A stretch of 53,676 nucleotides of DNA, taken from the NCBI GenBank assembly GCA_000151295.1, contig GG745336.1, positions 392,874 through 446,549 of the forward strand, in the 5' to 3' direction. The notes below the pieces were generated by a model. The model saw nothing but the letters and a program-made list of their open reading frames with translations, did not search any database and was not told the origin of the DNA. Positions 13,875-29,776 of this stretch are shown here, piece after piece; the first letter of the stretch is position 1, and each line of letters opens with the position of its first letter. The DNA is from Allomyces macrogynus ATCC 38327. Its lineage: Eukaryota; Blastocladiomycota; Blastocladiomycetes; Blastocladiales; Blastocladiaceae. The translations under genes and the position numbers were made by a program.

Positions 13875-13879
13875 ACAGT
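13875..13879 (+). repeat. Target-site duplication, left copy (ACAGT)
   Basis: The five bases ACAGT directly precede the terminal TGCGTATGCCC of the element and recur directly after its other end at 29772-29776. A 5-6 bp duplication is the expected footprint of an rve-type integrase. Confidence 0.75.
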
Positions 13880-14424
13880 TGCGTATGCCCTTAAGGGCAT
13901 ACGCACCTGTGCCCCAGGGCACAGCCCCAGTGCCCCCAGGGCACGCCCTGCCCGCAAGGGCAGCATGGGTAGAGTCCACCTAACAGTGATTGCTTACCGC
14001 GAGTGAATCTGTAAGAATCCACCTCAATCCACCTTGTGTCCATCCCAAGTCTACCTGCCCTCAGGGCACACCCTGCCCGAAGGGCAGCATGTCAGCGAAT
14101 AAAGGGCGTGTGCGGTAAGCAATCGAGGAATGTTGTGGCGGATCATGTCGATGATGGCACAATGAGTCGTGCCCTGGGGCACAATCTGTGGCAGGTTGAG
14201 GCGAACTGTCTAAGACGTGCCACGCTGCCACCATTTTGTGGTGTTTTTAAAAAGTTTCAATCCGAATGTGGAATAGGGACTGACCAGAGGCTGAATCCCA
14301 CATTCACGTCCGACCCGTCCCAGAACCGCTCAAGAATCGTGGCAATCGTGCCACTTGCTCACCCCGAACACTTCCATGTACTGTCACAGATGCTCGGGGG
14401 TCCACATGCATGAATTCCACATTC
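13880..14424 (+). repeat. Left terminal inverted repeat
   Basis: Positions 13928-14424 are the reverse complement of 29206-29702 (p pairs with 43630-p). I found no difference where I compared them, and a 125-codon frame inside is identical in both. The outer 48 bp differ in length between ends but both finish in the palindrome with half-site GCGTATGCCCTT (13881-13904). The repeat contains many short hairpins of the form GCCC-n-GGGC, for example near 13888, 13912, 13930, 13948, 14059, 14073 and 14169. Confidence 0.95.
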
Positions 14425-15016
14425 GACAGCTGAGGCCCCTCAGTCCACCCTTGAATCGTGAACTGTGAACACACTCGATAGCATGCCGCGGCCAATGGCG
14501 CTTGTGGCAGGCCTGTCCCTGGGTGTACACGGTTTCTCAACAAGAAAATGAATCGTGTACACCTAAACGCTCGGGGGTCCAAACTGTACACGATGTTCAC
14601 GATTTGGGGGTGGTTTTAGAAAGTTTTCTATTTCAATGTGGAATTGGTTTTCATTTTCCCGTCCTAACACCACATTCATTTGGAAATCTTTCTAAAACCA
14701 CCCCCAAACTGTGTACATCGTGTACATGCCTCACCCCGAGCGTTTTAGTGTACACGGTTTGGACCATGGCTTACGGCAGACACTGCATTTGTACACGATT
14801 CTGTACACGGTTTTTATTGAAGGTCACTGATTCGAGCCACCCGAGGCTCCGCGTGCCGCAGGCATGTGGAGAAGGGTGCGCGAGTCCCAGCTTGTGACTT
14901 GGTTCGGGGACGCCAGACCAAGAATGTATTACAAAAGACAAATCAGCAATCGTTCCACAACTTACTCGTCAAACGACTCAAACGCACCTGAGATTTATTT
15001 TGCCAACCTCCAGTAA
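14425..15016. other. Left sub-terminal non-coding region with large imperfect hairpin
   Basis: No gene seen. GGGGGTGGTTTTAGAAAG at 14606-14623 is perfectly complementary to 14688-14705. The pairing continues outward imperfectly for about 25 more bases (GTACACGATG against CATCGTGTAC), giving arms of roughly 40 bp around a loop that contains AATGTGG...CCACATT. The inner end (14820-14893) is an imperfect inverted copy of 28664-28737. Candidate roles are replication origin, encapsidation signal or structured RNA. None is proven. Confidence 0.6.
14820..14893 (+). repeat. Inner inverted repeat, left arm
   Basis: The stretch with GAGCCACCCGAGGCTCCGCG and GGCATGTGGAGAAGGGTG is the imperfect reverse complement of 28664-28737. 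With the outer TIR it makes a composite inverted repeat of about 1 kb whose middle has diverged. Confidence 0.85.
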
Positions 15017-15295
15017 ATGACACTGTGCAAACGCTGCGACATTCCCATTGAAACGCAGCAGTACGAATGCTCAAAGTGCTACACAGAGTTCTGCAACACA
15101 TGTGCACGCGTAACAGCGTTCTGGTTCGGTGGCAGTGGCTCAACCCCAGCACGATGCCAAAGCTGCACAACTATCAACCCAGATCGCTGCGATGCATGTG
15201 GTCTCAAGTTCAAACCAGGCCAAAACGTCTTTGTCTCCACCCCAGGGGCTAATCCGCCGTTCTTTTGCGGACGTTGCGCTCACGACTACTTGTAA
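15017..15295 (+). CDS. Small multi-CxxC zinc-binding protein of the provirus
   Basis: Unrecognised 92-residue protein. It has six CxxC pairs, at residues 4/7, 18/21, 26/29, 47/50, 58/61 and 84/87, with a His at 89. That is enough for three zinc sites and resembles tandem zinc ribbons or a B-box/FYVE-like fold. Such proteins in DNA viruses often bind nucleic acid or host ubiquitin machinery, but no specific role can be assigned. The start context is GTAAATGA, one of the TAAATG starts shared by several genes of the element. It is the outermost gene on the left and points away from the left TIR. Confidence 0.75.
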   Translation: MTLCKRCDIPIETQQYECSKCYTEFCNTCARVTAFWFGGSGSTPARCQSCTTINPDRCDACGLKFKPGQNVFVSTPGANPPFFCGRCAHDYL

Positions 15296-15332
15296 GGTTA
15301 TTCAAAGTATATTTACCATGTACTTTGAATGA

Positions 15333-15542
15333 TTAGTTGAAGTTGACAGTGTAGACTGTTCCTGGCGTCAAAGGCACACGTACAGCAGTCTTCCATGCGT
15401 GCTCATCAAGACCCCTGCGACAACGGACGAGTGGATGGACGCTTCGAACCGGGATAGATCTGATCAGCGACATGGTGTCCGTGTGTGGGCTGCGGGGCGT
15501 TTGCTGGCTCGAGTGTGATGGAGTCGTCTGAGTGGTACTCAT
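15333..15542 (-). CDS. Small protein of unknown function, downstream of penton gene
   Basis: 69 residues from the ATG at 15542. The frame is open further upstream to 15683, but that part looks like leader sequence. The N-terminal third is Ser/Thr/Gln/Pro-rich (MSTTQTTPSHSSQQTPRSPH) and the rest is basic and beta-like, ending VPLTPGTVYTVNFN. It is the last gene of the leftward morphogenesis block and converges on the zinc-protein gene with 37 bp between stops. No family recognised. A small virion component is possible. Confidence 0.5.
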   Translation of the reverse strand: MSTTQTTPSHSSQQTPRSPHTDTMSLIRSIPVRSVHPLVRCRRGLDEHAWKTAVRVPLTPGTVYTVNFN

Positions 15543-15763
15543 GGTTTTTCGTTCGCGTGTGCTTGCGTCTAAACTTGTACGGGAAAAGAAAAAGACACAT
15601 CGTGCGTTTACGAGTTGGGCAATAAAAAAAAGACGGTCAGTGCTTTGGATGACGCTTGCGGGCGTGGTACCCGATGATGGCAAACTCTGACAACAAGACG
15701 ATGACTTGTGCTGTTAGGATAAAGACTTCGAAGAACATTTACAACAATACAAGAAAAATAAAC

Positions 15764-16540
15764 TCATGTCAAGAACGCGATCGTGATCGTCCAGTAGTTT
15801 CCATTAAAGTCCACATTGCGGAGTTTATTGTCGCACAACTCCAAGTCAATCTCGTGGACCTCCTCGGCGATACCTTTACTGTCGAAGTTGAAGAACTCGT
15901 TCCCTGCAAAGTTTTGGTACACGAACGGTTGGCCGTACGATCCCTGGACGTGAAACGAAGTCATCAGCGAGCCGTTATTTGGAAACGAGCTGTGGGTATA
16001 GTCTGCCAACATGCTGCCGATATTACTCTTCAAATGCAGCGTGTCGATTGGCGCCAAGTTGAGCGCATAAGCTCCCGTCTGGGAAGACGACTCAATGGTG
16101 TAAGTATCCAAAGGCGCATAACCGAACCCGAGATGCCGCTCAATGCCATTGTCAAGGTTGCGGATGATGCGGAAGCTCATTGACGAGTTGCTGATTGTCA
16201 CAAACCCTGTGGCCTGATTCCACGTCACGGACCACACGCCCTGCCAGTGAAACTCTGCGTTGGCAGCATTGAGAAGCTCGGTGATTTTATCGCACAACGT
16301 TGTGGGGTTGTAGTAGGCGGGAGGAATAAAAACACCACCGTCGTAAGACGAGAAGCCGACTTTTCCACGAATGCCCAGAACATTGTTGTATTTCGTGATG
16401 TTGTACCACGTATTAGGAATCATGGCAGACACAATCTTTACGCCCTTGGCCTGGATGGGTCGCGGCAAACGAAATGAATTGTTTGAGTCCAGGTCGCGAC
16501 TGGAAATCGTCACGTACTTGACGCGTGGAATGCTTGTCAT
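15764..16540 (-). CDS. Minor capsid (penton-like, single jelly-roll) protein
   Basis: 258 residues. It is the predicted vertex protein of the PLV capsid. The evidence is the alternating beta-strand pattern, the N-terminal segment typical of PLV/virophage penton proteins (VKYVTISSRDLDSNNSFRLP followed by GVKIVSAMIPNTWYNIT) and the position next to the major capsid gene. The C-terminus (NGNYWTITIAFLT) ends on a strand, as in these proteins. Start at the ATG 16540, context CTGTAAATGA. The upstream neighbour is the small 84-residue protein, 22 bp away. Identification is from fold-like pattern and synteny. Confidence 0.8.
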   Translation of the reverse strand: MTSIPRVKYVTISSRDLDSNNSFRLPRPIQAKGVKIVSAMIPNTWYNITKYNNVLGIRGKVGFSSYDGGVFIPPAYYNPTTLCDKITELLNAANAEFHWQGVWSVTWNQATGFVTISNSSMSFRIIRNLDNGIERHLGFGYAPLDTYTIESSSQTGAYALNLAPIDTLHLKSNIGSMLADYTHSSFPNNGSLMTSFHVQGSYGQPFVYQNFAGNEFFNFDSKGIAEEVHEIDLELCDNKLRNVDFNGNYWTITIAFLT

Positions 16541-16562
16541 TTACAGTCTACTGAGAAAATAA

Positions 16563-16817
16563 TTAGACGCCTCCTGCCTGTCCGCCACCGCCGTCTGCAC
16601 TTGTTCCGCGCCAGCTGTCCCACAAGTCGAAGCCCGAGTCCACCCAGTTGGTCGCGGCCATGACAGCCTCTGTGGGTGCGGCGAAACCCGGGATTCCATG
16701 CATTAGACGAGCGACCTCGCGCACGCCCTGGGTGATGTCACGGCGATGGTTGTACACGAAAGCGCCAAGGGATGCGATTGCTGTTTTAAACGACGTCCAT
16801 AGATCAGAGATTTTCAT
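16563..16817 (-). CDS. Small candidate membrane-active minor virion protein
   Basis: 84 residues from the ATG at 16817 (MKISDLWTSF). A short amphipathic helix (WTSFKTAIASLGAFVYNHRR) is followed by a second (GVREVARLMHGIPGFAAPTE) and a Gly-rich end (DGGGGQAGGV). It lies in the capsid operon between penton and major capsid genes. In adintoviruses and adenoviruses this neighbourhood carries small pVI/pX-like proteins that bind DNA or disrupt membranes. The comparison is by position, size and helix pattern only. Confidence 0.55.
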   Translation of the reverse strand: MKISDLWTSFKTAIASLGAFVYNHRRDITQGVREVARLMHGIPGFAAPTEAVMAATNWVDSGFDLWDSWRGTSADGGGGQAGGV

Positions 16818-16860
16818 TGGGGTGTTTACCAATAAGACGAGAAATTAAATCACGGCGCTT

Positions 16861-18183
16861 TTAGTTGAAGACGTCCACTGATCCGTCGATGTTGAAGGAA
16901 ATCGCCGTGGTGTAGCCGACAAACGCGTCGCAGCGCCATGCCACAGTACCGAGAGTATTGTCGACCAGGAACGGTGCGCCAGTTGTAAGCACCTCCAGAT
17001 CGACGCCTGATTTCTTGGCCTTCTCTGAACCTGACACAAGCGACGATGTTTCGAAACTACGAGCAATGACGAATGAACCAGCGGGTGGAGTGAACACACC
17101 TCCCGTGACAGAGCCGCCGTCATTCCACTTTGAGACAGTTAGTGCATCGCCAACAACATGGCCCTTTGTGAAAATCTCTAATTCGCGCAGGGGCTCCACA
17201 CAGGGACTTGAGCAGTCAATCGGGCGTTGCGTGACCATTTCGTCTCCGTTTTTGATGCTGTAAGACGTCAAGCCAGGCTGTCCACGAGCCAGTGGGTCGA
17301 CGTTTGCCTTACCCCAGTACTGCGGTGTGCGAAAACTCATAATCAGAGCTCGCTGCTGTGCATGTCGGTCATTAATAACAACACTACCAGTTGGTGCGAC
17401 AAACGAAGGATTTTTGCGGCTCCACGTCAAACCCGTATACATCACGCCCCCAGCAGCTTGCCACGCAGCGTCGAGCTGGGACAATTGTTCAGCGTGAGGT
17501 ACGATGCTATCGACCGTCAAATATGGGTCTGAGACGACGTATCCGCCGACAGTTCCCGTTGTATTGATGAGGCAGTGCTGCGGGGATGCCAGCGTGATTT
17601 CCACAACCAGGCCTGACGTATGTTTGAGATTGACCCACTTGTCCTGGCTGAAGAGGGCCGAATGCAGAGGGACGAGATACGCCCGGTTCGCCCCTGAACG
17701 GTTGCCACGAGGCCCATATCCCTGTGCAATGGACAAAACCGTGTCTTTCATGGCTCCAGGAGTGGAAACGTCTGAGAGAATCCGGCTCACCAAATTGTAC
17801 CCGTCGATGTCCTCCAGAAGTTGGTCTGCTGAGGTCATGATACGCAAGCGACTGATGACGCTCGAGATGCCTTCCGCAAAGTATTGTTCAGTCGTGTCGC
17901 CTGCAGTCGTGGCCTGAGTGCACGCCGAGTCCTTGTACGTTGATGCCTTGAACGAGAACCGCACCCCCGAGGACAAGTCAACGATTCGATTCACGGCGGG
18001 AAGTTGGAAACGAATGACACTGCTCAGACCATTGCCGGACGCGGAGAACGCTGAACCTTGTGTGCATGGGAATTTCAATGTCTGGCGGTCGGCGGCTGCA
18101 CTCTGGCTGGGTGGCTTCATAACAAGTTCCTTGCCCACGCTGGTCGGGAGGACGTTGCTGAAGTTGGTAACTGCGGATGACAT
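16861..18183 (-). CDS. Major capsid protein (double jelly-roll)
   Basis: 440 residues, about the size of PLV major capsid proteins and shorter than the roughly 600 residues usual for virophages and Polintons. Expected to form the pseudo-hexagonal trimeric capsomers. The evidence is its size, its strand-rich Gly/Ser/Thr composition, its position between ATPase and penton genes, and segments such as VIRFQLPAVNRIVDLSSGVR (strands of the first jelly roll) and LVVEITLASPQHCLI. There is no protease recognition consensus that I can name. ATG at 18183 in the context CCATAAATGT. The spacing to the ATPase stop is 36 bp. Confidence 0.85.
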   Translation of the reverse strand: MSSAVTNFSNVLPTSVGKELVMKPPSQSAAADRQTLKFPCTQGSAFSASGNGLSSVIRFQLPAVNRIVDLSSGVRFSFKASTYKDSACTQATTAGDTTEQYFAEGISSVISRLRIMTSADQLLEDIDGYNLVSRILSDVSTPGAMKDTVLSIAQGYGPRGNRSGANRAYLVPLHSALFSQDKWVNLKHTSGLVVEITLASPQHCLINTTGTVGGYVVSDPYLTVDSIVPHAEQLSQLDAAWQAAGGVMYTGLTWSRKNPSFVAPTGSVVINDRHAQQRALIMSFRTPQYWGKANVDPLARGQPGLTSYSIKNGDEMVTQRPIDCSSPCVEPLRELEIFTKGHVVGDALTVSKWNDGGSVTGGVFTPPAGSFVIARSFETSSLVSGSEKAKKSGVDLEVLTTGAPFLVDNTLGTVAWRCDAFVGYTTAISFNIDGSVDVFN

Positions 18184-18219
18184 TTATGGAATGTTTAGAA
18201 ATGCACAAGAAAAAAAAAA

Positions 18220-19008
18220 TTATTCGTCGTGTTCATCAACGTCCTTGTCTCTGAGAATAAACGAGTGAAACGAGTTGTTGTACCGATACGCGACACCTGG
18301 GTTCTGGAGATTGATGTTCAAAGTCGCGTGTGGAGTTTCAAAGACATTGTCACAGATTGCCAAGAACTCCTCCCATGAAAACGGCCCGCCACACGCTTCG
18401 TAGATTGTGCGTAGCTCTGTTTTATTGTATGTCTCGAAGAGGACGTAATAACTCATATTATTGCGTGCGAGCGGTGAAATGGCTTTGAATTGCTGGACAG
18501 ACATGACCATGGTGCACTTGCGGTGACGTGACAGCGCGATGAACGAGTCGAGGTACCGACTGCGTGCGAACTTGGTGCCAGCAATGTCGTCTAACACAAT
18601 GAGGATATTGTCGTAAGGTTGGCCAGGGTATTTCTCGAAATCGCGCTTCTCCGGGTCTTGCAACATTTCGATATGGCGGAGCTTTTCCTCAAACTTGTCA
18701 ACGTCGTTGATGAAACAGTCGCGCGACACCTTCAGCAACTCTGGGTCGTAGGGCATTCCCGGCGTGTGCTTTAAGATGGGCGTGTCCATCAATAGCTTGA
18801 ATTTGGGATCGAGGTGTGCGGTGGGCGAGAACACATAGATGCGGTCGAAGCAGTGCGCCCAGCACAGCGGCGAGAGGATCATGTTCAGACAGACTGTTGA
18901 CTTACCCGCGGCTTTCGGTCCGAGCAGGCATACTGTCGCAGGAATCTTGGGGACGAGGTACGGACCCCCTCTCTTGGCCTGGTTGTCGAGTGGCTTCACT
19001 GTGAACAT
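18220..19008 (-). CDS. Genome-packaging ATPase (FtsK-HerA/A32-like)
   Basis: 262 residues. Expected to pump viral DNA into the preformed capsid. Walker A is LLGPKAAGKSTVC near residue 29-41. Walker B is NILIVLDDIAG, followed by a Ser/Arg-rich sensor stretch (SFIALSRHRKCTMVMSVQQF) typical of the A32 group. A tail of charged residues (RDKDVDEHDE) ends it. It precedes the major capsid gene on the same strand, the usual PLV/virophage order. Upstream of the ATG is TATAAAGTAATAGG, an AT-rich promoter-like element. Confidence 0.92.
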   Translation of the reverse strand: MFTVKPLDNQAKRGGPYLVPKIPATVCLLGPKAAGKSTVCLNMILSPLCWAHCFDRIYVFSPTAHLDPKFKLLMDTPILKHTPGMPYDPELLKVSRDCFINDVDKFEEKLRHIEMLQDPEKRDFEKYPGQPYDNILIVLDDIAGTKFARSRYLDSFIALSRHRKCTMVMSVQQFKAISPLARNNMSYYVLFETYNKTELRTIYEACGGPFSWEEFLAICDNVFETPHATLNINLQNPGVAYRYNNSFHSFILRDKDVDEHDE

Positions 19009-19035
19009 CCTATTACTTTATACAGGGAAAATGTT

Positions 19036-19908
19036 TCACTGGACGCCTTGGAATCCTTGTGGTAGGTAATGGACCTTGGGCCCACGCGGCTGAATGACTC
19101 TTGGTTCGTCTGCACCAATTTCACGGGCAGGCGCGCGCGGATTGCGTCGGAACCGCGGGACAGTGGCAAAGTACACGTCGACAGCGCGCCGACGATCTTC
19201 CCATGGCAGACGCGGAGTTGGACGGACGGCCTCGACAATTTGCTTCACAGCATCTCCCATGACTTTCTGGTCTTGTAACGGATTAGAGCTCCCACCACCG
19301 CCTGTCCCGCCGATGTTTCCGACCGCGCCTTGAACTTTCTCCAGAGTGCTCGACAACTTGGCCAGTGGGTTGGCCATTGTCCTGTTGAGCACGTCAACGA
19401 CTTTCCCGGGCACATTTTCAATGGCCGCGTTCGTCGCATCAGTTGCAGCAGCAATTTGTTGAGGGACGTCAGTCAAAGCTCCCTGGATTTTATGCTGGTG
19501 TTTCTGAATGTCTTCGCCCAACAAACCGACTTGCCCAATCAGATTCATGTTACGGTCCATGCTCTTCATCATTGCAGCGTCGCGAAGACTTTGCTGTGCA
19601 ACCAAGTTTTGCAGTTCGCTCTTCACCAGCCCACCGACTACGTTCATGGCATTTCCACCCTCTGCATTCAGATTCATCTCGAGACTGTTCAACGCAGACA
19701 ACAATGCAGCGTTCTGCTCCTGGCCACTTGCAAACGTCGCTTGAATGCCTGCAAAGAGCTGCCCCAATGCTGGCTCGATCCCTGGATACGTCTGGATGAT
19801 GTTTTGGATATTCTGGACGTTCTGAGTATTGAGCTGCATGTTGTTCTGGTACAGATTATTCTGCGTGTTGTTCTGAATGTTCTTCTGCAAGTTATTTTGT
19901 TGGAGCAT
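19036..19908 (-). CDS. Gln/Asn-rich helical protein of the morphogenesis block
   Basis: 290 residues from the ATG at 19908. The frame continues upstream only through a GTG at 19956, and 19908 leaves 13 bp after the previous stop. The first 45 residues are extremely Q/N-rich (QQNNLQKNIQNNTQ...). A long helical, partly coiled-coil middle follows. Then come a Gly linker (GGTGGGGSS) and a basic, Pro/Arg-rich end (FRRNPRAPAREIG, PRGPKVHYLPQGF). No family recognised. Its place next to the ATPase and the basic end would suit a DNA-binding or scaffold-like virion protein, which is inference. Confidence 0.7.
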   Translation of the reverse strand: MLQQNNLQKNIQNNTQNNLYQNNMQLNTQNVQNIQNIIQTYPGIEPALGQLFAGIQATFASGQEQNAALLSALNSLEMNLNAEGGNAMNVVGGLVKSELQNLVAQQSLRDAAMMKSMDRNMNLIGQVGLLGEDIQKHQHKIQGALTDVPQQIAAATDATNAAIENVPGKVVDVLNRTMANPLAKLSSTLEKVQGAVGNIGGTGGGGSSNPLQDQKVMGDAVKQIVEAVRPTPRLPWEDRRRAVDVYFATVPRFRRNPRAPAREIGADEPRVIQPRGPKVHYLPQGFQGVQ

Positions 19909-19921
19909 TACGGCCTGGTGA

Positions 19922-20503
19922 TTAGCGCCGGCCTGCGGATTCCAGTTTGCACTCACGGGACCCTGCCACGCCGTTGTTGTTGCGAGCGAGACCGACTGCT
20001 GTTTCGAAAGCCCCGGGCATCTCGACCAAAGCCGTGGGGGGTGCCTCGACCATTTGACGAGCCAGAATCGGTGGAAGGGTCGTGTCCTGCTTCACGAGTT
20101 CGCCCGCGCCCTTCAACACCAGCGCCTTCTCAGGGTCAGACTCTGTCGTCGCGTCGATGTCGAGTTTTGGCCGGTCGTCCGTCACTTGCATGTCGTCGGG
20201 TGGAGGGTACTGGAGTTCAGTATTGGGGTTGGTAGAGGGGCTTTCTGGTTCGTCCACGTCCATACCGTATTCGTCTCGACCCCGACGATGTAAAAACTCA
20301 TTGAGCTCTTTCAGAAGGCCCTTGTACGACCGTGCCCTGATGTGTTTCCCCGCAGGCCCTGGCCCCCCAGAGACGGTGAAAGTAAAGGGATCCACACGTG
20401 AAAATATATCACCGTTTTCCTCGAAAATCTTATCAATAAGGTACTGTGTCTGTGCAGTGCCAGTTTTTGTAGCCCGCTTTTTTACGCCCCCTGCTTTGAC
20501 CAT
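19922..20503 (-). CDS. Unknown basic/acidic two-part protein of the morphogenesis block
   Basis: 193 residues. A Lys/Arg/Thr-rich start (MVKAGGVKKRATKTG) precedes a compact segment with YLIDKIFEENGDIFSRVDPF and SYKGLLKELNEFLHRRGRDE. An acidic, Pro-rich linker follows (YGMDVDEPESPSTNPNTELQ). No family recognised. The compact part has the feel of a small helical domain. It lies second in the leftward block and its stop is 13 bp from the next start. Confidence 0.65.
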   Translation of the reverse strand: MVKAGGVKKRATKTGTAQTQYLIDKIFEENGDIFSRVDPFTFTVSGGPGPAGKHIRARSYKGLLKELNEFLHRRGRDEYGMDVDEPESPSTNPNTELQYPPPDDMQVTDDRPKLDIDATTESDPEKALVLKGAGELVKQDTTLPPILARQMVEAPPTALVEMPGAFETAVGLARNNNGVAGSRECKLESAGRR

Positions 20504-20564
20504 GGTGTGTGGTTATATGTGCGCCACAAAATAAAACAACTTAATACAACTTAGTACAACATAA
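20504..20564. promoter_or_regulatory. AT-rich spacer between two leftward viral genes
   Basis: Short spacer upstream of the 20503 start. On the coding strand it reads GTTGTTTTATTTTGTGG...CATATAACC before the ATG, a plausible promoter. Nothing else is seen. Confidence 0.4.
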
Positions 20565-20825
20565 CTACAGCCAGAGACTGTCCAATAACTCGCGGTCGCG
20601 TGCCAGTTCGCGAGTTTTCAACTTTGCGCGCATCCGGTCCCGGATTTTGGCTGCACGGTCTTGGTCGGTCGTGTCCTTCAACAAACGGTATCGTTTGAGG
20701 ACCTTAGTACGAGCGCCAATAAAATTGTCGAGAAACTCTTGCTTAGCGTCGTCGTCATCCAGTGCATAGAATGACTGCGGCGCGCCCACCTCCTTGGCAA
20801 GTTCGTCGAGTGTTTGGTAGAGCAT
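20565..20825 (-). CDS. Small highly charged helical protein
   Basis: 86 residues, almost entirely helical. An acidic first half (YALDDDDAKQEFLDNFIG) and a strongly basic second half (AAKIRDRMRAKLKTRELARD) end in LLDSLWL. No family recognised. It is first in the leftward morphogenesis block and starts 22 bp from the divergent fibre gene. Start context AATAAATGC. Confidence 0.65.
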   Translation of the reverse strand: MLYQTLDELAKEVGAPQSFYALDDDDAKQEFLDNFIGARTKVLKRYRLLKDTTDQDRAAKIRDRMRAKLKTRELARDRELLDSLWL

Positions 20826-20847
20826 TTATTTTATGGCCAGATAATAA
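20826..20847. promoter_or_regulatory. 22-bp divergent promoter region
   Basis: Only TTATTTTATGGCCAGATAAT plus AA separates the two outward-facing ATGs at 20825 (-) and 20848 (+). It is roughly symmetrical (TTATT...AATAA), so both starts read TAAATG. Control elements must lie inside the neighbouring genes or be this short AT-rich core. Confidence 0.6.
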
Positions 20848-23049
20848 ATGAACAGCAATCTCAACCTGTTTGGTCTCTCAGGGGACAGCCAGTATGCAAC
20901 CGACGCGGAGTTGGCTGCGGCTATCTCCAGTGTCGTCGCGGGAACGTCGTCCACAACTGCAACGCCGCCCATCACCGTAACAAGCGGGAACGTGAATTTG
21001 GCGTACGACACGGTAACATTCGCTGTGAATGCGTCCAACCAACTTACGGTCAAGGATTCCGGGATTCCCGACGCAAAGATTTCGGCTGTGAACGGCTCCA
21101 AGTTGGTGGACAATACCGTCACCAGTGCAAAGATTGTTAGCGTCGACGCTGCCAAAGTCTCGAGCGGCACCTTGAGTCTCAGCGTGATGCCCACAATCCC
21201 ATCAACAAATGTGAGCGGGAGTTTCGCTGATGCCCAGTTGACTTCGCTTGCAACGAGCAAGCTTGTCGGCCAGGTCACCAGTGCACAAGTTGCGGGACTC
21301 GATGCGTCCAAACTGACCGGTACCGTGGCGCTGACGGTGTTGCCTTCGATTCCCAGCACGAAAGTCACTGGTTCGTTCGACGACACACAGTTGACCTCGC
21401 TCGCGACAACCAAGCTCGTTGGTCAGGTCACGAACACTCAAATCACAGGGCTCGACGCAGCGAAATTAACTGGCACTATTTCAACGACCGTCCTGCCTTC
21501 GATTCCCAGCACGAAAGTCACTGGTTCGTTCGACGACACACAACTGACTTCACTTGCGACGAGCAAGCTCGTTGGCCAGGTCGTGAATACCCAAATCGCA
21601 GGGCTCGACGCGGCAAAGCTGACAGGGAGTGTGGCGCTGGCGGCACTACCGAGTATTCCCACGACTTTGCTCACAGGCACAATCGCCGATGCCAGCATTT
21701 CCGGTCTGAGCGCGTCGAAATTGACGGGTCAAGTTGTCGACACTCAGCTCGCTGGGTTAAGCGCGTCAAAGCTGACGGGAACAGTGTCTCAGTCTTTGCT
21801 CGGGCTGGGTCAACAATTCTCGTTCAGCAACACTACTGATGCAACGAGTTCGACGGTGGGAGCATTGACTGTGGCTGGTGGTGTTGGCGTGGCGAAATCT
21901 GCGTACGTTGGCGGGAATGTTGTGGTAACAGGGAATGTCACGGCCGCAACAGCGTCGGCTGGTCAACATCTCACGACGCTCAACCAAGTCAATAGCTTGA
22001 TTTCGACAGCCACAACAGGGATGGTCACCAACACGGCACCCGTGAGTCTGTTGTCGACCACTGATTCATCCAGTTCAACGACGGGTGCGTTGACGGTTGC
22101 AGGGGGTGTTGGCGTTGCAAAAGCCTTGAGCGTTGGATCCACAGGGACGTTTGCGGGTCAGGTCACGCTCAGCACGACGCTCAGCACTACGTCCAAGTCG
22201 ACTGGAGCGCTCGTCGTCCCGAACGGTGGCATCGGTTGTAATTGGATCACGTCAACTGGTGCATACGTCTTTAATTCTGGCAATGCCTCGCTTACACTCA
22301 AATGCAATGAAGGCGGCGGCACAAACGGCGTGGCATACATTGATATCATGTCCGACAGTGTGAAGAAATTCAACATTGCGTTCAACACGAATGCGTCGTA
22401 CGGCTACGGCGAGGTAGGTACAGCGAGTTCAGCTGGGATTCAGCTTGCAACAACGGGCAACGTGGCCGTGGGAGTGGCTCCGAATGTGTCGGGTGCGAAA
22501 CTTCAGGTCGCAGGGAATATCAGTTGTAGCGACGCAACACTTGCAACCCATGCATGCACGTACGGTCAACTCCAAGCGGCAGCCCTACCCCCAACTGTTC
22601 GGTACGGTCAGCTCATGTTTAACAGCACATCTCCCATTGCGTTCAGTTCTATGAGCAATGTCAAACTTAGCGGATCGTATTCTCAGGCCGTCGTTGTCAA
22701 CACAACGTCCCCTGCTGGAGCGTTTATTTCATCGGGCACCAATGGCGTATTCAGTGTTGCCCAGTCTGGGTGGTACAGCGCAAGCATGTGGAGTTGGTAC
22801 ACGTCGACCCCGTCTGCGGAACACACTGCAACAGTTTCCCTGTATGATTACACGTCCAGCACGACAGCTTTAACTGGAAATCTTGGGTTATACTCGTCCG
22901 TGATGGTCAAAAGTGCAAATCCGCAAATGTCGGCGTCTGCTTTTGTCTACCTCGATAGCACTAAGCAGTATTGCATGATGTGGATGTGCGACGTGGCCAT
23001 CTCAGCCGTCAATGTCCATACGACGCTCAACTTGTTCCTGCTGCGTTGA
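20848..23049 (+). CDS. Fibre/tail-fibre-like receptor-binding protein
   Basis: 733 residues. The N-terminal 100 residues are low-complexity Ser/Thr/Val. A shaft follows with three 51-residue repeats (153 bp each, 21187-21645) and a partial fourth. The unit includes IPSTKVTGSFDDTQLTSLAT and a QVxxxQxxGLDAxKLTG end, a pattern typical of trimeric beta-fibres. Two copies of GALTVAGGVGVAKS/A follow (near 21860 and 22083), a motif seen in phage tail fibres and giant-virus fibre proteins. The last 140 residues resemble a C1q/TNF-like beta-sandwich knob (SGTNGVFSVAQSGWYSASMW). It probably projects from the vertices and binds the host surface. It is transcribed opposite to the capsid genes. Confidence 0.8.
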   Translation: MNSNLNLFGLSGDSQYATDAELAAAISSVVAGTSSTTATPPITVTSGNVNLAYDTVTFAVNASNQLTVKDSGIPDAKISAVNGSKLVDNTVTSAKIVSVDAAKVSSGTLSLSVMPTIPSTNVSGSFADAQLTSLATSKLVGQVTSAQVAGLDASKLTGTVALTVLPSIPSTKVTGSFDDTQLTSLATTKLVGQVTNTQITGLDAAKLTGTISTTVLPSIPSTKVTGSFDDTQLTSLATSKLVGQVVNTQIAGLDAAKLTGSVALAALPSIPTTLLTGTIADASISGLSASKLTGQVVDTQLAGLSASKLTGTVSQSLLGLGQQFSFSNTTDATSSTVGALTVAGGVGVAKSAYVGGNVVVTGNVTAATASAGQHLTTLNQVNSLISTATTGMVTNTAPVSLLSTTDSSSSTTGALTVAGGVGVAKALSVGSTGTFAGQVTLSTTLSTTSKSTGALVVPNGGIGCNWITSTGAYVFNSGNASLTLKCNEGGGTNGVAYIDIMSDSVKKFNIAFNTNASYGYGEVGTASSAGIQLATTGNVAVGVAPNVSGAKLQVAGNISCSDATLATHACTYGQLQAAALPPTVRYGQLMFNSTSPIAFSSMSNVKLSGSYSQAVVVNTTSPAGAFISSGTNGVFSVAQSGWYSASMWSWYTSTPSAEHTATVSLYDYTSSTTALTGNLGLYSSVMVKSANPQMSASAFVYLDSTKQYCMMWMCDVAISAVNVHTTLNLFLLR
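21187..21645 (+). repeat. 153-bp coding tandem repeat, three units
   Basis: Units at 21187-21339, 21340-21492 and 21493-21645 encode 51-residue fibre-shaft repeats. A fourth, diverged unit starts at 21646. Units 2 and 3 are nearly identical over their first 50 bases (CCTTCGATTCCCAGCACGAA), suggesting recent expansion or homogenisation. Confidence 0.9.
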
Positions 23050-24187
23050 GGCTCCTGATTCGCTCTGAGCGTCGCAAAACCTGTTCTCCAGGGACCATGA
23101 CAATGTTTGTCGTGCCACGCACTCGGGTTGAGGGATTCACAGCGGGTTTCTTTGGGCGCTCGTAAGTCTCGACCGATGAAATAACTTGCAAGTCCGAGGC
23201 GTTGTAATATCGCGGCATGTCAGAAATCCGGTAACTTGGCGAGCTAATCCCTGTGCCTTTGCGTCGATGAGTAATCGTGTGGAGCGTGTCGCTGTATGTC
23301 GGCTTCGATTTCGACTCCAACGGGTTCTTATTCGGGATTCGATACCGGACTCGCGTGCCAATTTTCAACAGTGTGTCGTGGATAACGTCGTCGTTTCGCG
23401 TGTGCTTCTTCTTCAAGTCTTCGAGCACAGCTTTCGATTCACTCTTGGGCATGTCATGAACTTCATCTGGCGTGCGGTTTGCAAGGGGCTTTCGTGGCAA
23501 ATTATTCAAGGACTCTTCAACTTGGGGGAGAAACTTGGGCCAGTCGCGATGGCCTTGGGCGAGGTACATTGTGAGGTACCGGCGGACTTGTCCGTTCAAA
23601 CTTTCGACTTGACCTTGGCCCATGGGCACATGGGGTTTGCCATTGACAGCACGTACGTTGGGGTCTTTGCGTATCAACTGAAATTCCTTGCCGTTATCCA
23701 TGTGCACGACCGGATTTGATGCAAAGCCCTTGGTTGACGAGATATCTTTCCATGCAATGTAAACAGCGTCCTGGTTCTTTGTACGGAGCGGGCGGAGACA
23801 CAACTTGCGAGACCCAACATCGACGACGTTCATAACGTATCTGTACCGGTCCCACGTCCTACTCTCGCCCATATCAATCAGGTCGCACTGGTAAACGCGT
23901 TGTGTGGATGTCACAGTGATGCGCCTAATATCACGTTTGGGCGGCGGACGTTTGAACTTTTGCCAGAGCTCCTGGGCAGACAGCCACACGTTGACTTGGT
24001 TGCGGTAAATATGTGGCAAGGTAGACGGTGCCTCACGTTGAACTGCTTCGTACAAGCTACGGTAGCTTGCTCCTGGGTATTTTTCATAGTACAACCGCTT
24101 AAGAAATGCCTCTTGGGGGCCTGACAATGGCTGGCGATTTGGATAAGTGCTCCAATCGGGCTCTTTATTCTTTACTGTTTTCTTCAT
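23027..24187 (-). CDS. rve-family DDE integrase (Polinton/retroviral type)
   Basis: 386 residues from the ATG at 24187 (context TTATAATG). It joins the linear element to host DNA and makes a short target duplication. An N-terminal helical region resembles a zinc-binding/HTH module but has no clear HHCC. The catalytic core has QCDLIDM (Asp near 102), VVHMDNGKEFQ (Asp 164) and GQVESLNGQ (Glu 195). The C-terminal part has a chromodomain-like stretch (IGTRVRYRIPNKNP, then YRISDMPRYYNASDLQVI). All three acidic residues are present, so it looks active. Its stop lies inside the 3' end of the convergent fibre gene (23 bp overlap). Confidence 0.93.
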   Translation of the reverse strand: MKKTVKNKEPDWSTYPNRQPLSGPQEAFLKRLYYEKYPGASYRSLYEAVQREAPSTLPHIYRNQVNVWLSAQELWQKFKRPPPKRDIRRITVTSTQRVYQCDLIDMGESRTWDRYRYVMNVVDVGSRKLCLRPLRTKNQDAVYIAWKDISSTKGFASNPVVHMDNGKEFQLIRKDPNVRAVNGKPHVPMGQGQVESLNGQVRRYLTMYLAQGHRDWPKFLPQVEESLNNLPRKPLANRTPDEVHDMPKSESKAVLEDLKKKHTRNDDVIHDTLLKIGTRVRYRIPNKNPLESKSKPTYSDTLHTITHRRKGTGISSPSYRISDMPRYYNASDLQVISSVETYERPKKPAVNPSTRVRGTTNIVMVPGEQVLRRSERIRSLNAAGTS

Positions 24188-24207
24188 TATAACTATGCAA
24201 AACAAAA

Positions 24208-24930
24208 TCATTCGTCTTGGTCCTCTTGAAGACGGTAGTAGTAGTCGGCAACGGTTGTCCCATGGCCACGACCATGGAATTTCGCTGTCAGCTCTACAAA
24301 TGAAATTTCCCCAGTTTGGTAGTGCAGTGTTTCGCGCGTGGTGTGTGCTTTGCGGAAATCCGTGACGGTTGCACTGTTGAGCTCCTTGATTTTCTTGACT
24401 GTCTTGTTGATGAGTTCAGAATATCTGCGTCGACTCTGCTCCTCGTTGCCATCCACCACCAGGTTGTGGAACACAAACGCCTGCCCTGCTGCTGCACGTT
24501 CGGAGACGTTGGCCAGAATCTGTTCCTTGAATGGCGACTCAATCTCAATGTCAATGACGTATTTGCCGCGGTTCTTGTCCTTCTCGCTCATCACCCGATT
24601 GCCGCAAACGAAGAGTTTGTCGTCACGCATCTCCAAGTACGGGAACTCGTCGTGGGGCGCTGTCTGCAGAAAGACAGGGTCGCAACGCAAACCAGTGGCG
24701 GCGCTCAGGAAAATACCCAGCATCCCGTCTTTCAGGGGCTGCACAGGGACAGTCGCTGCCCAAGTCTTGCACTGGTCTACCGAGACAACCAGCGCTTCGT
24801 TTGCTTTCTCGACTTTGCGAATCAGCTCCTTGGTCCGTTTGCGGGCGTGGCATTCTTCATGCAGTTTTACAATGTCGACGTTCGAGAATCGCTGGCCGGA
24901 CAGTTTCACCAAGTTTAGAGCGGCAGCCAT
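24208..24930 (-). CDS. Tyrosine-recombinase-like protein
   Basis: 240 residues from the ATG at 24930. It carries the full catalytic set of the tyrosine recombinase family with correct spacing: SAATGLRCDP (Arg 82), a lysine-bearing hairpin (VMSEKDKNRGKY), HTTR (His 196, Arg 199), RGH (His 223, 24 after Arg 199) and DYYY, with Tyr 232 exactly nine after His 223, as in XerD/phage integrases. The N-terminal 60 residues would be a shortened core-binding domain. It may resolve or circularise replication products, or integrate at specific sites. The stop is 20 bp before the integrase start on the same strand, suggesting co-expression. The family call rests on motif spacing seen by eye. Confidence 0.8.
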   Translation of the reverse strand: MAAALNLVKLSGQRFSNVDIVKLHEECHARKRTKELIRKVEKANEALVVSVDQCKTWAATVPVQPLKDGMLGIFLSAATGLRCDPVFLQTAPHDEFPYLEMRDDKLFVCGNRVMSEKDKNRGKYVIDIEIESPFKEQILANVSERAAAGQAFVFHNLVVDGNEEQSRRRYSELINKTVKKIKELNSATVTDFRKAHTTRETLHYQTGEISFVELTAKFHGRGHGTTVADYYYRLQEDQDE

Positions 24931-24939
24931 GTCCTTCAA

Positions 24940-25404
24940 TTACTTGGTCGTCATCTTGTCGAACAGCTCGCCCGACTGTGAGACCACGTCAAGTCCCTTA
25001 CAGCCGGTCAGCGAACAGACATTGCCCTGGAAACCCTTTGCCAGGCGCAGGCGCTGGTCCTTGGTATTGGCCGAATCGTCTGAGTTGTTCTTTGCAGCGA
25101 CATACGTGTCCAGCAGCGGACGAAGCACGAATTCTGGGAGAGCCGGCTCAGTTGGCTCAGCTGCTGGTTCGGGAGTTTCCTCGGGTTCTTCATCTTGTAC
25201 GTCGACTTCCATGGGCTCTGCAGTGACGACTTCTGGCTCTGGTTCGGGGGCAGTGTTCCGGGCGAAAGTGGCACGGAACTGGTTCGCGAAATCTGCTGCT
25301 GTGGCCGCATCACGTTCAATCTTGGCCAAACGCGAGAGGACTTGCTCTTCGAATGCTACCTGACGGTTGACCAGTTGGATGAGAAGGAGCTCGGTGTTGT
25401 TCAT
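24940..25404 (-). CDS. Acidic coiled-coil protein of unknown function
   Basis: 154 residues from the ATG at 25404. The frame extends upstream to 25539, but through sequence that overlaps the divergent gene. A short coiled coil (LLLIQLVNRQVAFEEQVLSR) is followed by a very acidic Pro/Glu linker (residues about 50-85) and a compact C-terminus (LPEFVLRPLLDTYVAAKNNS). No family recognised. Its stop is nine bases before the recombinase-like gene, so the two are probably one transcription unit. Confidence 0.7.
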   Translation of the reverse strand: MNNTELLLIQLVNRQVAFEEQVLSRLAKIERDAATAADFANQFRATFARNTAPEPEPEVVTAEPMEVDVQDEEPEETPEPAAEPTEPALPEFVLRPLLDTYVAAKNNSDDSANTKDQRLRLAKGFQGNVCSLTGCKGLDVVSQSGELFDKMTTK

Positions 25405-25508
25405 GTTGGTTTGTTGTGCCCTACTTTGTGCCCTACAATGGGGGCAGATAAAATATTTATGCCATAACGCGTTTATCGTTAAGACACTTTTTTCTCGCCA
25501 ACTGGTAA
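25405..25508. promoter_or_regulatory. Divergent promoter region of the provirus
   Basis: 104 bp between outward-facing genes. It contains the AT-rich stretch ATAAAATATTTATGCCATAA at about 25448-25467, the most AT-rich point nearby and a likely shared core promoter. Confidence 0.5.
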
Positions 25509-25988
25509 ATGCTCTCTCTTGAAGAATCTGCTTTGACAACTTTCTGCGACAAAGTCAGCGACAAGCGGGTGTTTGATCCCGAATCTGTCAAGAACTTTAC
25601 GCTGGACAGCGTCAAAGAGTTTCTCAGCGACTCGGACTTTGACGAGCTGAGCTACCGGTTTGCGAAAAACGTTCGTGCGTTGGGTGCTCGTGTCGTTATT
25701 GCCGAGCGACTTCTTGGCCGTAAATTTAAAACCACACCATTCAATTATTTCTCCCACAACCAGACATTGAGCGCCATGATTGATGAGCGGGCTCTGAAAA
25801 CGACCAGCGTTGACGTCCGAAAGGTGATGGCCGAGTTTGGTTTGCAAAGCTACGACGAGCAGTGGATTGATATCCTGGTTGAACACGAAGAAGTTCTACG
25901 GACGCACGCCATGAAAAAACTGGGGGTCGCCTGCTCCAAACCGTTGCCCAAGAAAACTGAAGCAAATGCTGAAAGTGGTTCTGAGTGA
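25509..25988 (+). CDS. Unknown helical protein upstream of the replication gene
   Basis: 159 residues, start context GGTAAATGC. Mostly helical (DSVKEFLSDSDFDELSYRFA, VRALGARVVIAERLLGRKF), with a Lys/Glu-rich tail. It resembles small DNA-binding or regulatory proteins only in composition. No family recognised. It is read in the same direction as the polymerase-helicase gene, 374 bp upstream of it. Confidence 0.7.
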   Translation: MLSLEESALTTFCDKVSDKRVFDPESVKNFTLDSVKEFLSDSDFDELSYRFAKNVRALGARVVIAERLLGRKFKTTPFNYFSHNQTLSAMIDERALKTTSVDVRKVMAEFGLQSYDEQWIDILVEHEEVLRTHAMKKLGVACSKPLPKKTEANAESGSE

Positions 25989-26362
25989 AGTTTGGAGGCA
26001 CAGTTTGAGGATGGCGGCTGTGGCTCAGCGGTGGGGTTTTTTTGCGAAAAAAGTCGTTGTTTTGGAGGCTGCTGCTGTGCCACTCTCGTCCGACGCTTTG
26101 CAAAGTCGAGTTCAGCAGGCTGTGACTATCGTTAAACAGCCCATTTTCTCAGGGTCTTTCGGCCGCCCACTTCCATGAGCCCGTCTGTGCTTCACCATTA
26201 CAGAACACGCACAACGATATTTGCCACGAGCATATTAGCCGTGTTGCGCCCCCGGTTCTGGACAGCATTGGCGCGTTCCTTGCTCCAACACCACCAACCC
26301 ACTTTCCCAAACGCGTTTGAGACGCACTCGACAATTTATTTTCTCGCTCAAGTATAATCAGA
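25989..26362. other. Spacer before the replication gene, with a poly-T/poly-A hairpin
   Basis: No supported gene. Only a 70-codon frame without coding character is present. TTTTTTTGCGAAAAAA at about 26038-26053 forms a perfect short hairpin. AGTATAATCAGA immediately precedes the ATG at 26363 and looks like the viral promoter core. Confidence 0.5.
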
Positions 26363-28665
26363 ATGAACACTGCCAAGATTGCCGCCACGCTCGCCAACAT
26401 CGAAACGCAGTTTGAAGACGGCCGTCGTGTTGTCCTGCACGAGTTCATCTCGGTGCAAAAGGCCTTGGAACTTCTCGAGCGCTACTCTGGGATTGACCGC
26501 GAAGAGAAACGCCAGTTCAAGACGCAGTACATGGCGCGCTACTCCAAGGACTCTGGCAAAGAAACTGTTTATGAGCACAAGACCACGCTGCGGAATGTCG
26601 GCGAGAAGAAATTCGGACGCCTGTACCCGACGAGCAAGTCACTGCAGAACATGTCCAAGGAAACGTTCCGTAACCCACTCACGCACGGCGTGCTCCAAGA
26701 TCTCGACATGGTTGGGGCTGCGCCATCAATCCTGCGCGGCGTTCTCGCGCATTACAACAAGCAGTCGACAGCACTCGACCTTTACGTCTCGGACCGGCCT
26801 GCTGCTTTGGGTCGATACAAGGTGGACAAGACCAAGTTCCTGGCTGTGCTCTTTAACGAGTTCCCGACCTACGCGCTCCACCCGGAATTGGTGGAGATGC
26901 GCCGCGTCCTTTACGACGAGGTCGCGCCGCGCGTCCAGCGTGAATTCCCAGACATTGTCAAGTTCTGCAAGACGCGGGGCGGCGGGGCGGTCAACAAGGG
27001 GTCGCTGTTGTCGAATCTGTTCAACGCCGTCGAGTCGGTCATTCTCATGAAAGCAGTGGACTACTGCCGCGCTCATGATGTTGTGCCGTCGGTGCTCATG
27101 TTCGACGGTCTCATGGTGAAGCGGGACCCTGAGCGTGTTACCGAACGGTTCCTGGCTGGCCTGCACGCGTTTACGATCCAAGAGACGGGCTTTGACGTCG
27201 CATGGGCCGAGAAACCGATTCCCGCTGGTACAGGGGCCAAGTCGTCGTTACCGAACTTCTGCGAGGACCCTCTGAAATTTGCAGCTGATCAAATCGACAA
27301 GTGCGATGGGGTTTACAAGGACCGCCTGGCAATGAAGGTCTTTGAGCACATGGTCTCGCGCAAGTCAGAGGAAGACCAGGAGTCGTGGATGGCTGCTCTC
27401 ATTGCGTATCTCGGCGAGTTCGCGCGCAAGGACCTGAAAGTCGCAGGCCACTATTACTTCCGTCGCACAACGAGTGACCCCTGGGAGCTGAACACTGCGG
27501 GTGAAGTTATCGACGCTGTATTCAGCAAGCCGCTCGTCAAGTTGTTTCCCCAAGTCAAGGGGCGAATCTTCGACTTGCACGCAGAAAAATGGGGTCCGAG
27601 TCGCGACAACGGTCTCATTATTGAACACTTTAACGCATTTCCGGGGTTCAAGGCCAAGAAGCTTGATCGTAAAGTCGACGAGTCGGAAATCAAGCTGTAT
27701 CTCGACTACCTGTTGCATGTCTGTGCGCGTGGACGGGAGCCCGAGTACACTCACATCCTCAAGTGGATCCAAGCGCTGCTCACGACGGGCAAGGCAAATG
27801 GTGTCATGCTGATTTTTTCACGGCCTCGAGGGTGCGGAAAAGGCATGTTCTACACGCTGTTGTGCAAGTACGTGCTCGCGACGACAACTGCATCACGCTC
27901 AACGACCTTGGCGAGCTTCATGAACGGCAGTTCAATGTGCACATCGAAGACAAGCTCCTCGTGCTTGTTGACGAAATCTCGAGGCTTCAAGGCTCAGCGC
28001 GCGCAATTTTCGAAAAGCTCAAGAACGCGCTCACGGACGAGCACTCGGTCATCAACCAAAAGTATACGCGCGTGTACAAGACGAGGAACGTCAACAACTG
28101 GATGGGCGCGACCAACAATCCTGACGCTGTTCCGCTGACCAAGACGGGTCGTCGCTGCTTCGTGAACGAAATCTCGAACCTGTTCCGCAACAACGCCGAG
28201 TACTTTGAAAAGCTCGACGCCTTTGTCAAGGCCAACGCGGATGCCATCTTCACGTACCTGGTCGACCTGGACCTGTCGCACATTCGTCTGCAGGACTTTC
28301 CGCGGAATGAGGACCGCGACGCCATGGTTGAGGCCAGCATTGATCCGGTTCGCGCCTTTTTCAACGAGATCATTGACTATTCCGGTTTTCCGGTTGGGCT
28401 CATGGGTGGCGGTAGCGTGGAAACCAAGTCAGAGCTTGATGTACAGGCCATTTACGACATGTACATTGAGTACGTGCGGAAGCGCTTCCCTGGCGGCGAA
28501 GTTAAGTCGATGAATGGCCTGTCGCGCGATCTGAACAAGGCATTCCGCCCTGACGATGAATCGAAGCGGCTCTTCGAGTCGAAACGCCAACAAGTTTGCG
28601 GGCGCCGTGTTGTGCTGTATGTCTACAAGGGTCCCTCTGTGATGGACGGCATGGACGAGTCGTAA
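26363..28665 (+). pseudogene. Transposon-virophage polymerase (TV-Pol) fused to SF3 helicase, frameshifted
   Basis: Replication protein. The N-terminal half carries the TV-Pol pattern, a family-A-like DNA polymerase known from virophages and PLVs: KFGRLYPTSKSLQN, motif A LQDLDMVGAAPSIL (Asp near 115), a Lys-rich helix (VDKTKFLAVLFNEF), GGGAVNKGSLLSNLFNAVES and motif C VLMFDGLMV (Asp near 248). The C-terminal half is a superfamily 3 helicase, with Walker A FSRPRGCGKGMF (about 27818-27850), Walker B KLLVLVDEIS and sensor MGATNNPDA. Between Walker A and Walker B, around 27875-27890, the frame changes by one base loss (or two gained). The first frame runs on to 28138, and the second frame, open from 27763, continues to the TAA at 28663-28665. 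I see no slippery heptamer, so a lesion or read error is likelier than programmed frameshifting. Confidence 0.88.
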
Positions 28666-28737
28666 GCTGGGATTCGCACACCCTTCTCCACATGCCTTGC
28701 AGCACGCGGAGCCTCGGGTGGCTCATGTCAATGACCT
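28664..28737 (-). repeat. Inner inverted repeat, right arm
   Basis: Imperfect reverse complement of 14820-14893, beginning at the stop codon of the replication gene. It encodes nothing recognisable. Confidence 0.85.
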
Positions 28738-29205
28738 GTTCATAAATTCGTTTTCTCAATCCAATGGAAATCGTGGCAGCGAGTGGGTGTTCGGGGTGGC
28801 CAAGTGCCACGATTCTCAGAAACAGGCCTCAAAAAAGTGCTCGGGGTGGCCAAGTGCCACGATTGCCACCATTTTGGGGGTAGAAAGGGAAACTTTTGAA
28901 CTGAATGTGGTGTTCACGTCCTTTTTTGGTCCACCACTCCACATTGAAATGAAAACTTTTTTAAAAGACCCTAAAATGGTGGCAGCGTGGCAGTGGGACC
29001 CCCGAGTGAATTTTCGACCTTGAGAGACAAGCCCAAAAAAATGGTGGCACGTCCAGTTTGGACCCCCGAGTGATTCTAAGGCTCGGCGCCACGATTCTCA
29101 GAAATGGTGGCAGAATGGTGGCACTTGCTCACCCCGAGCGTCTGTGAAATTACATGGAAGTGTTCGGGGTGGCACACAGCCGTGATTCTGGACGTGGACG
29201 GACCT
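28738..29205. other. Right sub-terminal non-coding region with inverted repeats
   Basis: No gene. It holds repeated blocks CGGGGTGGCCAAGTGCCACG (twice, near 28791 and 28844) and a large imperfect hairpin. GATTGCCACCATTTTGGGGG near 28860 pairs with CCTAAAATGGTGGCAGCG near 28970, with AATGTGG and CCACATT in the loop-side arms. The design is the same as in the left sub-terminal region and inside the TIR, though the sequences have diverged. Confidence 0.6.
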
Positions 29206-29771
29206 GAATGTGGAATTCATGCATGTGGACCCCCGAGCATCTGTGACAGTACATGGAAGTGTTCGGGGTGAGCAAGTGGCACGATTGCCACGATTCTTGA
29301 GCGGTTCTGGGACGGGTCGGACGTGAATGTGGGATTCAGCCTCTGGTCAGTCCCTATTCCACATTCGGATTGAAACTTTTTAAAAACACCACAAAATGGT
29401 GGCAGCGTGGCACGTCTTAGACAGTTCGCCTCAACCTGCCACAGATTGTGCCCCAGGGCACGACTCATTGTGCCATCATCGACATGATCCGCCACAACAT
29501 TCCTCGATTGCTTACCGCACACGCCCTTTATTCGCTGACATGCTGCCCTTCGGGCAGGGTGTGCCCTGAGGGCAGGTAGACTTGGGATGGACACAAGGTG
29601 GATTGAGGTGGATTCTTACAGATTCACTCGCGGTAAGCAATCACTGTTAGGTGGACTCTACCCATGCTGCCCTTGCGGGCAGGGCGTGCCCTGGGGGCAC
29701 TGAGGGCGTGCCCTGGGGGCACTGAGGGCGTGCCCTGGGGGCATGTGCGTATGCCCTTAAGGGCATACGCA
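29206..29771 (-). repeat. Right terminal inverted repeat
   Basis: 29206-29702 is the reverse complement of 13928-14424. Outside it are extra copies of a 22-bp unit (GGGCGTGCCCTGGGGGCACT plus GA) at about 29682-29747, present as three repeats here but not at the left end. The same 24-bp palindrome then follows (29747-29770). Confidence 0.95.
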
Positions 29772-29776
29772 ACAGT
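29772..29776 (+). repeat. Target-site duplication, right copy (ACAGT)
   Basis: ACAGT directly after the terminal CGCA of the element, identical to 13875-13879. Confidence 0.75.

Follow-up and report, generated by a model that had tools for sequence, protein, structure and literature searches.

An end-to-end polinton-like virus in the genome of Allomyces macrogynus, with terminal palindromes that are likely to be copied through hairpins

The stretch of DNA analysed here (the window; 53,676 nucleotides, positions 392,874 to 446,549 of contig GG745336.1, assembly GCA_000151295.1) comes from Allomyces macrogynus ATCC 38327; the genus belongs to the Blastocladiomycota within the kingdom Fungi. Positions 13880-29771 of the window are an integrated, end-to-end polinton-like virus (PLV) of 15,892 bp. 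Reading of the flanks revealed the 5-bp target site duplication ACAGT at 13875..13879 on the left and at 29772..29776 on the right, adjoining the outer edges of a 26-bp palindrome that begins with TG, ends with CA and is present at both ends of the element (13880..13905 and 29746..29771). Because ACAGT lies just outside both palindromes, the palindromes belong to the element and form its own ends. The palindrome is perfect and identical at the two ends, with 11-bp arms around the 4-nt centre TTAA, and a single strand of the left copy folds into a stem-loop. The terminal inverted repeats (13880..14424, + strand, and 29206..29771, - strand) measure about 550 bp, in keeping with the repeats of hundreds of bp by which PLVs are recognised; they are nearly identical, with one substitution inside the repeat, one more mismatch at the edge of the alignment and, close to the outer end, insertions or deletions that alter the number of copies of a short tandem unit. 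A chance arrangement is excluded, because the same palindrome occurs with its own 5-bp duplications in two other copies and a control search with the reversed pattern returned zero matches. The original prediction had described a complete 15.9-kb PLV in a fungal-type genome, a full provirus rather than scattered relics, and the exact coordinates, both ends, the duplication and the gene set on one stretch bear this out. The palindromic ends, which are the less expected part of the element, had not been singled out there.

The element holds 11 genes in 13 open pieces, taken from the list of open reading frames (ORFs) of the window. The capsid module comprises the major capsid protein of 440 aa (16861..18183, - strand), predicted to be a double jelly roll, and a candidate minor capsid or penton protein of 258 aa (15764..16540, - strand), a weak call that matched DUF5901 with an E value of 4e-5 and 23.1 bits, below the curated cut-off of 26.4. 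An A32-type packaging ATPase of 262 aa (18220..19008, - strand), of the kind expected in a PLV, scored 32.3 bits against Pox_A32, above the cut-off of 22.8. The capsid, ATPase, integrase and replicase genes are all present. The other ORFs encode a cysteine-rich protein of 92 aa with a weak, sub-threshold zinc-ribbon resemblance (15017..15295, + strand), three proteins with no assigned function (290 aa at 19036..19908, - strand; 193 aa at 19922..20503, - strand; and 159 aa at 25509..25988, + strand), and a repetitive fibre-like protein of 733 aa (20848..23049, + strand). The repeats of the latter match phage host-specificity and tail proteins, e.g., host-specificity protein J, and a bacterial-virus origin for the fibre of this fungal virus is possible.

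A retroviral-type (rve) integrase of 394 aa is encoded at 23027..24211 (- strand). Its match to Pfam rve (27.0 bits) is under the curated cut-off of 32.6; its other matches were phrog_4410, for which no function is given (2e-8), and the transposase family phrog_157 (1e-6). The conserved acidic residues are visible by eye, and it was judged to be an rve integrase as found in polintons. As most copies of the integrase contain one to three TGA codons, recoding of TGA was considered and rejected: the TGA that they share immediately precedes the start codon, and another, near codon 289, occurs in several older copies in which changes of Arg to Cys, His, Gln or Trp are also visible by eye. Many changes of Arg to Cys, His, Gln, Trp or stop were seen by eye in older integrase copies, as expected from CpG deamination, hinting that the proviruses may be DNA-methylated.

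The replicase is spread over two reading frames when compared with a relative from A. javanicus, and is therefore a broken gene. Its first piece (26363..28138, + strand) holds the predicted polymerase part and the start of the helicase before it is interrupted, and its second piece (28102..28665, + strand) holds the helicase part, which matched a phage DNA primase family (E 1e-5). The prediction for the replicase is a fusion of a family A polymerase with a DUF5906-type helicase, the polymerase part resting on a low-confidence model. No ORF of the size of a protein-primed polymerase (pPolB) is present in the element, and PF03175, the pPolB profile, matched nowhere above its cut-off in the genome, in a search made without a positive control; one sub-threshold match was located at C45, outside the elements.

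A protein of about 400 aa, encoded at 24208-25404, is split by a stop codon into an N-terminal piece of 154 aa (24940..25404, - strand) and a C-terminal piece of 240 aa (24208..24930, - strand); in ten other copies it is a single open frame of 384-428 aa. The provirus is thus complete in extent and broken in at least two genes, the replicase and this protein, where only one visibly broken gene had been foreseen. By eye only, the protein shows a pattern of Arg, Arg, His and Tyr residues resembling that of tyrosine recombinases. Profile searches of Pfam, PHROG, NCBIfam and PDB (the last with profiles A4 and A5) returned no tyrosine recombinase or telomere resolvase, and PF00589 had no match in the genome at E<=10, while the control was detected in 14 of 14 genomes. 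Membership among the tyrosine recombinases was rejected on this negative search with a working control, and the resemblance is kept as a lead. Comparison by hhalign with phage integrases and protelomerases gave probabilities of 0.6 and 0.3, against 2.5 for the positive control and 0.5 for an unrelated protein; this test has no power, since the positive control, phage integrases against protelomerases, failed as well.

All copy counts given here are lower bounds because parts of the genome read N. In the genome the capsid protein yielded 36 matches and the integrase 32; when neighbouring capsid matches are taken together, 26 loci result, of which several are fragmentary. The capsids of the two nearest copies are 88 and 91% identical to that of the window, most others are 50-71% identical, and five are about 30% identical. 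Together with the gene content, the ends and the target duplication, the roughly 25 further capsid-bearing loci support the element as a full-length PLV in a fungal genome. Annotated relatives of the capsid, the replicase and the ~400-aa protein are all from Allomyces, except for one environmental capsid protein. One protein annotated in A. macrogynus ATCC 38327 is identical to a frame of the C59 copy in 398 of 398 residues, which assigns the genome to this species or to a near-identical strain; for two other annotated proteins, the longest exact stretch shared with the compared frames is 255 of 306 and 258 of 386 residues. A capsid protein on a 7,593-base contig is 41% identical to that of the window, and this relative may lie outside Allomyces. 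Searches of IMG/VR viral contigs by capsid, replicase and ATPase returned no relatives, the capsid scan being a weak one built on a single peptide pattern. A 3.16-kb element at C53:365336-368495 has terminal palindromes of the same kind inside the 5-bp duplication CGTGT, and is probably a short non-autonomous relative. Exact 5-bp duplications flank all eight elements for which both flanks could be read, the C53 element included, rather than the 6 bp expected of polintons.

The palindrome of the window occurs at ten sites in the genome: three full elements account for six of them, one at each end, and the other four stand alone. Other lineages carry palindromes of 25-26 bp with a different sequence and the same design, and in the elements of C48 and C73 these sit where alignment places the outer limit of the inverted repeats. 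Pairing is complete at 36 of the 43 ends collected; counted by position, 461 of 473 arm pairs match, and the other 12 all fall in seven ends of the lineage-B type. There are ten distinct fully paired arm sequences, which between them show variation at 8 of the 11 pair positions and none at the terminal TG and CA. Furthermore, two-base departures from the parent that are exactly compensatory were found at C40:164515, C47:207660, seven lineage-D sites and C74:770368. Apart from those of C48 and C73, most ends of the other lineages were found by pattern searches allowing up to 3 mismatches or by scanning the expected ends for hairpins. All 10 sites of the window palindrome and all 12 sites of one further pattern search were inspected; 7 of the 19 sites of another search (all with 3 mismatches) and 4 of the 14 sites of yet another (one with 2 and three with 3 mismatches) were left out as chance matches. 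One of the 43 ends, C75:148233, was included by its palindrome alone, its flanks matching no known end and showing no duplication. No recognisable end was found in 7 of 11 capsid-side pieces, two of which are partly N.

That the letters of the palindrome differ between lineages while the pairing is largely kept suggests that the ends are copied through hairpins. The reading we favour is that the element was probably inserted by its own retroviral-type integrase and that its linear DNA is likely replicated through hairpins formed by the terminal palindromes. The parts of this reading differ in strength. Insertion by the integrase, which would join the TG...CA ends at a stagger of 5 bp, appears well supported by the ends themselves; that a replicase lacking a protein primer copies the ends by way of terminal hairpins is likely; and that proviruses are lost when their terminal palindromes recombine is plausible. 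In such a cycle, the terminal strand would fold back on itself and prime or template the copying of the end, which would keep the arms complementary and could invert the centre; the joined ends would then be cut at the palindrome edge by a putative enzyme, and the integrase would take the resulting TG...CA ends and insert them with a 5-bp stagger. Recombination between the two identical terminal palindromes would later remove the provirus and leave one palindrome inside a 5-bp duplication.

The four lone palindromes (two exact, one with one mismatch and one with two) have this structure, each lying inside its own 5-bp duplication (CGACG, GAGCT, CTGAC and AATGC), and they look like the scars of lost elements. 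The one at C44:473240, with the duplication GAGCT, is in an exon of a gene for an FAD-dependent oxidoreductase (DAO, E 1e-16) and shifts its reading frame; this gene was apparently disrupted by a provirus scar. Alternatively, the integrase could have joined very short end fragments into these sites, given that each has integrase-style ends and a duplication of its own, and that the 3.16-kb element of C53 shows insertion to be open to short elements with ends of this kind. Both readings fit the data; recombination between identical terminal direct repeats yields the same product without any new activity, and the fragment explanation is considered the less likely.

The palindrome might also be bound, as a two-fold symmetric site, by the integrase or by a packaging protein, its pairing being kept by selection for binding and the ends being replicated otherwise. 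Dimeric action is common among integrases and packaging proteins, and the constancy of the outermost TG and CA among the ten fully paired arms would suit such a site; however, the change of most arm pair positions with pairing retained at the great majority of ends does not. The orientation of the centre bears on both possibilities, since hairpin copying predicts that both orientations occur. Read from the outside inwards, the centres of lineage B are TTGA at six ends, TCAA or TCAG at seven, and the symmetric TTAA at two. When the two repeats of the C48 element are aligned, 674 columns contain eight substitutions and one indel; three of the substitutions are adjacent and fall in the palindrome centre. 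The centres also differ between the two ends of C65:850180-870980, and one element of this kind, with both orientations at its two ends, is of lineage C. Inversion within a single element, as in C48 and C65, is not expected from protein binding. Several observations nevertheless weigh against copying through hairpins. The centre has the same orientation at seven of seven ends of lineage D (e.g., C65:1229872), which is unexplained under free flip-flop and would suit a protein site, and likewise at four of five ends of lineage C and at both ends of C74. In addition, ends sought by a palindromic pattern or a hairpin scan make a sample that favours paired ends. Only in some lineages, therefore, has the centre been shown to invert. 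Altogether, a protein-binding site is regarded as an unlikely explanation of the palindromes, and replication through hairpins is preferred.

An ordinary polinton (Maverick), one that replicates by protein priming and whose ends are unremarkable, would share the integrase, the ATPase, the capsid gene and the inverted repeats with the element, but it is highly improbable given the lack of a pPolB-sized ORF in the element and of a pPolB match above cut-off in the genome, and given a duplication of 5 bp against the 6 bp typical for rve integrases (PMC12220804). A host origin of the 26-bp palindrome, as a target sequence duplicated on insertion, might be suggested by its presence as a direct repeat at both ends and alone elsewhere, but it is refuted by the 5-bp duplications outside it at all eight elements and all four lone sites, all twelve of them different, and by the other palindromes of other lineages.

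Parvoviruses have terminal palindromes. Poxvirus genomes end in flip-flop hairpins (PMC8956199), and asfarviruses and phycodnaviruses are also named for hairpin ends (PMC11788076). The ends of poxvirus type and those of parvoviruses share with the present ones their self-complementarity and, as far as some of the present lineages are concerned, the occurrence of a mismatched or asymmetric part in either orientation; they differ in belonging to other virus groups, and the hairpin proposed here is deduced from integrated copies only. MCP, ATPase and helicase genes of PLVs in A. macrogynus were already reported by Bellas and Sommaruga 2021 (PMC7805220), together with an integrated PLV in Spizellomyces punctatus; among the integrated elements of that study, inverted repeats were noted in seven and duplications of 5-7 bp in three. 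Those elements have the host species and the MCP, ATPase and helicase in common with the present one, whereas end palindromes, a copy census and lone scars are not mentioned in the available text. The claim that full-length PLVs in fungal-type hosts are little described is weakened by that paper as regards novelty, while the full length of the present element stands. The PLV genes of A. macrogynus were therefore already known; the part of which no description was found in the literature searched is the palindromic structure of the ends.

No report of hairpin ends in PLVs was found in the literature searched, which does not prove that none exists. The word 'hairpin' is absent from PMC7805220 (supplements aside), 'palindrom' is absent from PMC10120064, a survey that excluded fungi, and from PMC4642659, and both are absent from PMC8547959 (main text) and PMC12220804; 'hairpin' is present once in PMC11071308, in a reference title, and twice in PMC7031253, where one use concerns a transcription terminator and the other belongs to the title of a reference. 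Replicases of PolA-helicase type are known from PLVs (PMC4642659, PMC11071308). In PolA-S3H PLVs (PgVV) and Sputnik-type virophages a PolA-helicase takes the place of pPolB, as predicted here, and the double jelly-roll capsid is shared; in contrast, the present element has a DUF5906-type helicase (with the low-confidence polymerase model), an rve integrase and palindromic ends. With polintons it shares the rve-type integrase, packaging ATPase, inverted repeats and capsid, and it differs in that no pPolB was found, the duplication is 5 bp, and the ends start with TG and form palindromes. The Cafeteria mavirus-like elements (EMALEs) are likewise many integrated small DNA viruses per protist genome with inverted repeats, and their target duplications are short, mostly 3-5 bp (PMC8547959), but they are of virophage type.

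In the available literature, it is not explained how PLVs and virophages with a PolA- or AEP-helicase replicase, lacking a protein primer, copy their linear ends, and terminal palindromes that covary across deeply separated lineages (capsids about 30% identical) offer a concrete and testable answer. A broader scenario can be put forward tentatively, although on balance it may well not hold as a whole: a double jelly-roll virus lineage of zoosporic fungi would have exchanged protein-primed ends for hairpin telomeres, self-complementary stem-loops of 25-26 nt that would be copied through themselves with inversion of the centre, resolved by a dedicated viral enzyme (perhaps the ~400-aa protein) and delivered as TG...CA ends to the integrase; loss of proviruses would leave the lone palindromes as scars. 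With some 26 capsid-bearing loci of varied preservation, a short relative and the apparent lone scars, integration, decay and loss can be compared within one fungus.

An Rfam search of the window returned no match. The ORF neighbouring the element on the left has no convincing family match. The right neighbour of the element is a pirin gene. Positions 32974-33624 are a 651-base run of N, which accounts for the dip in GC content at 33-34 kb.
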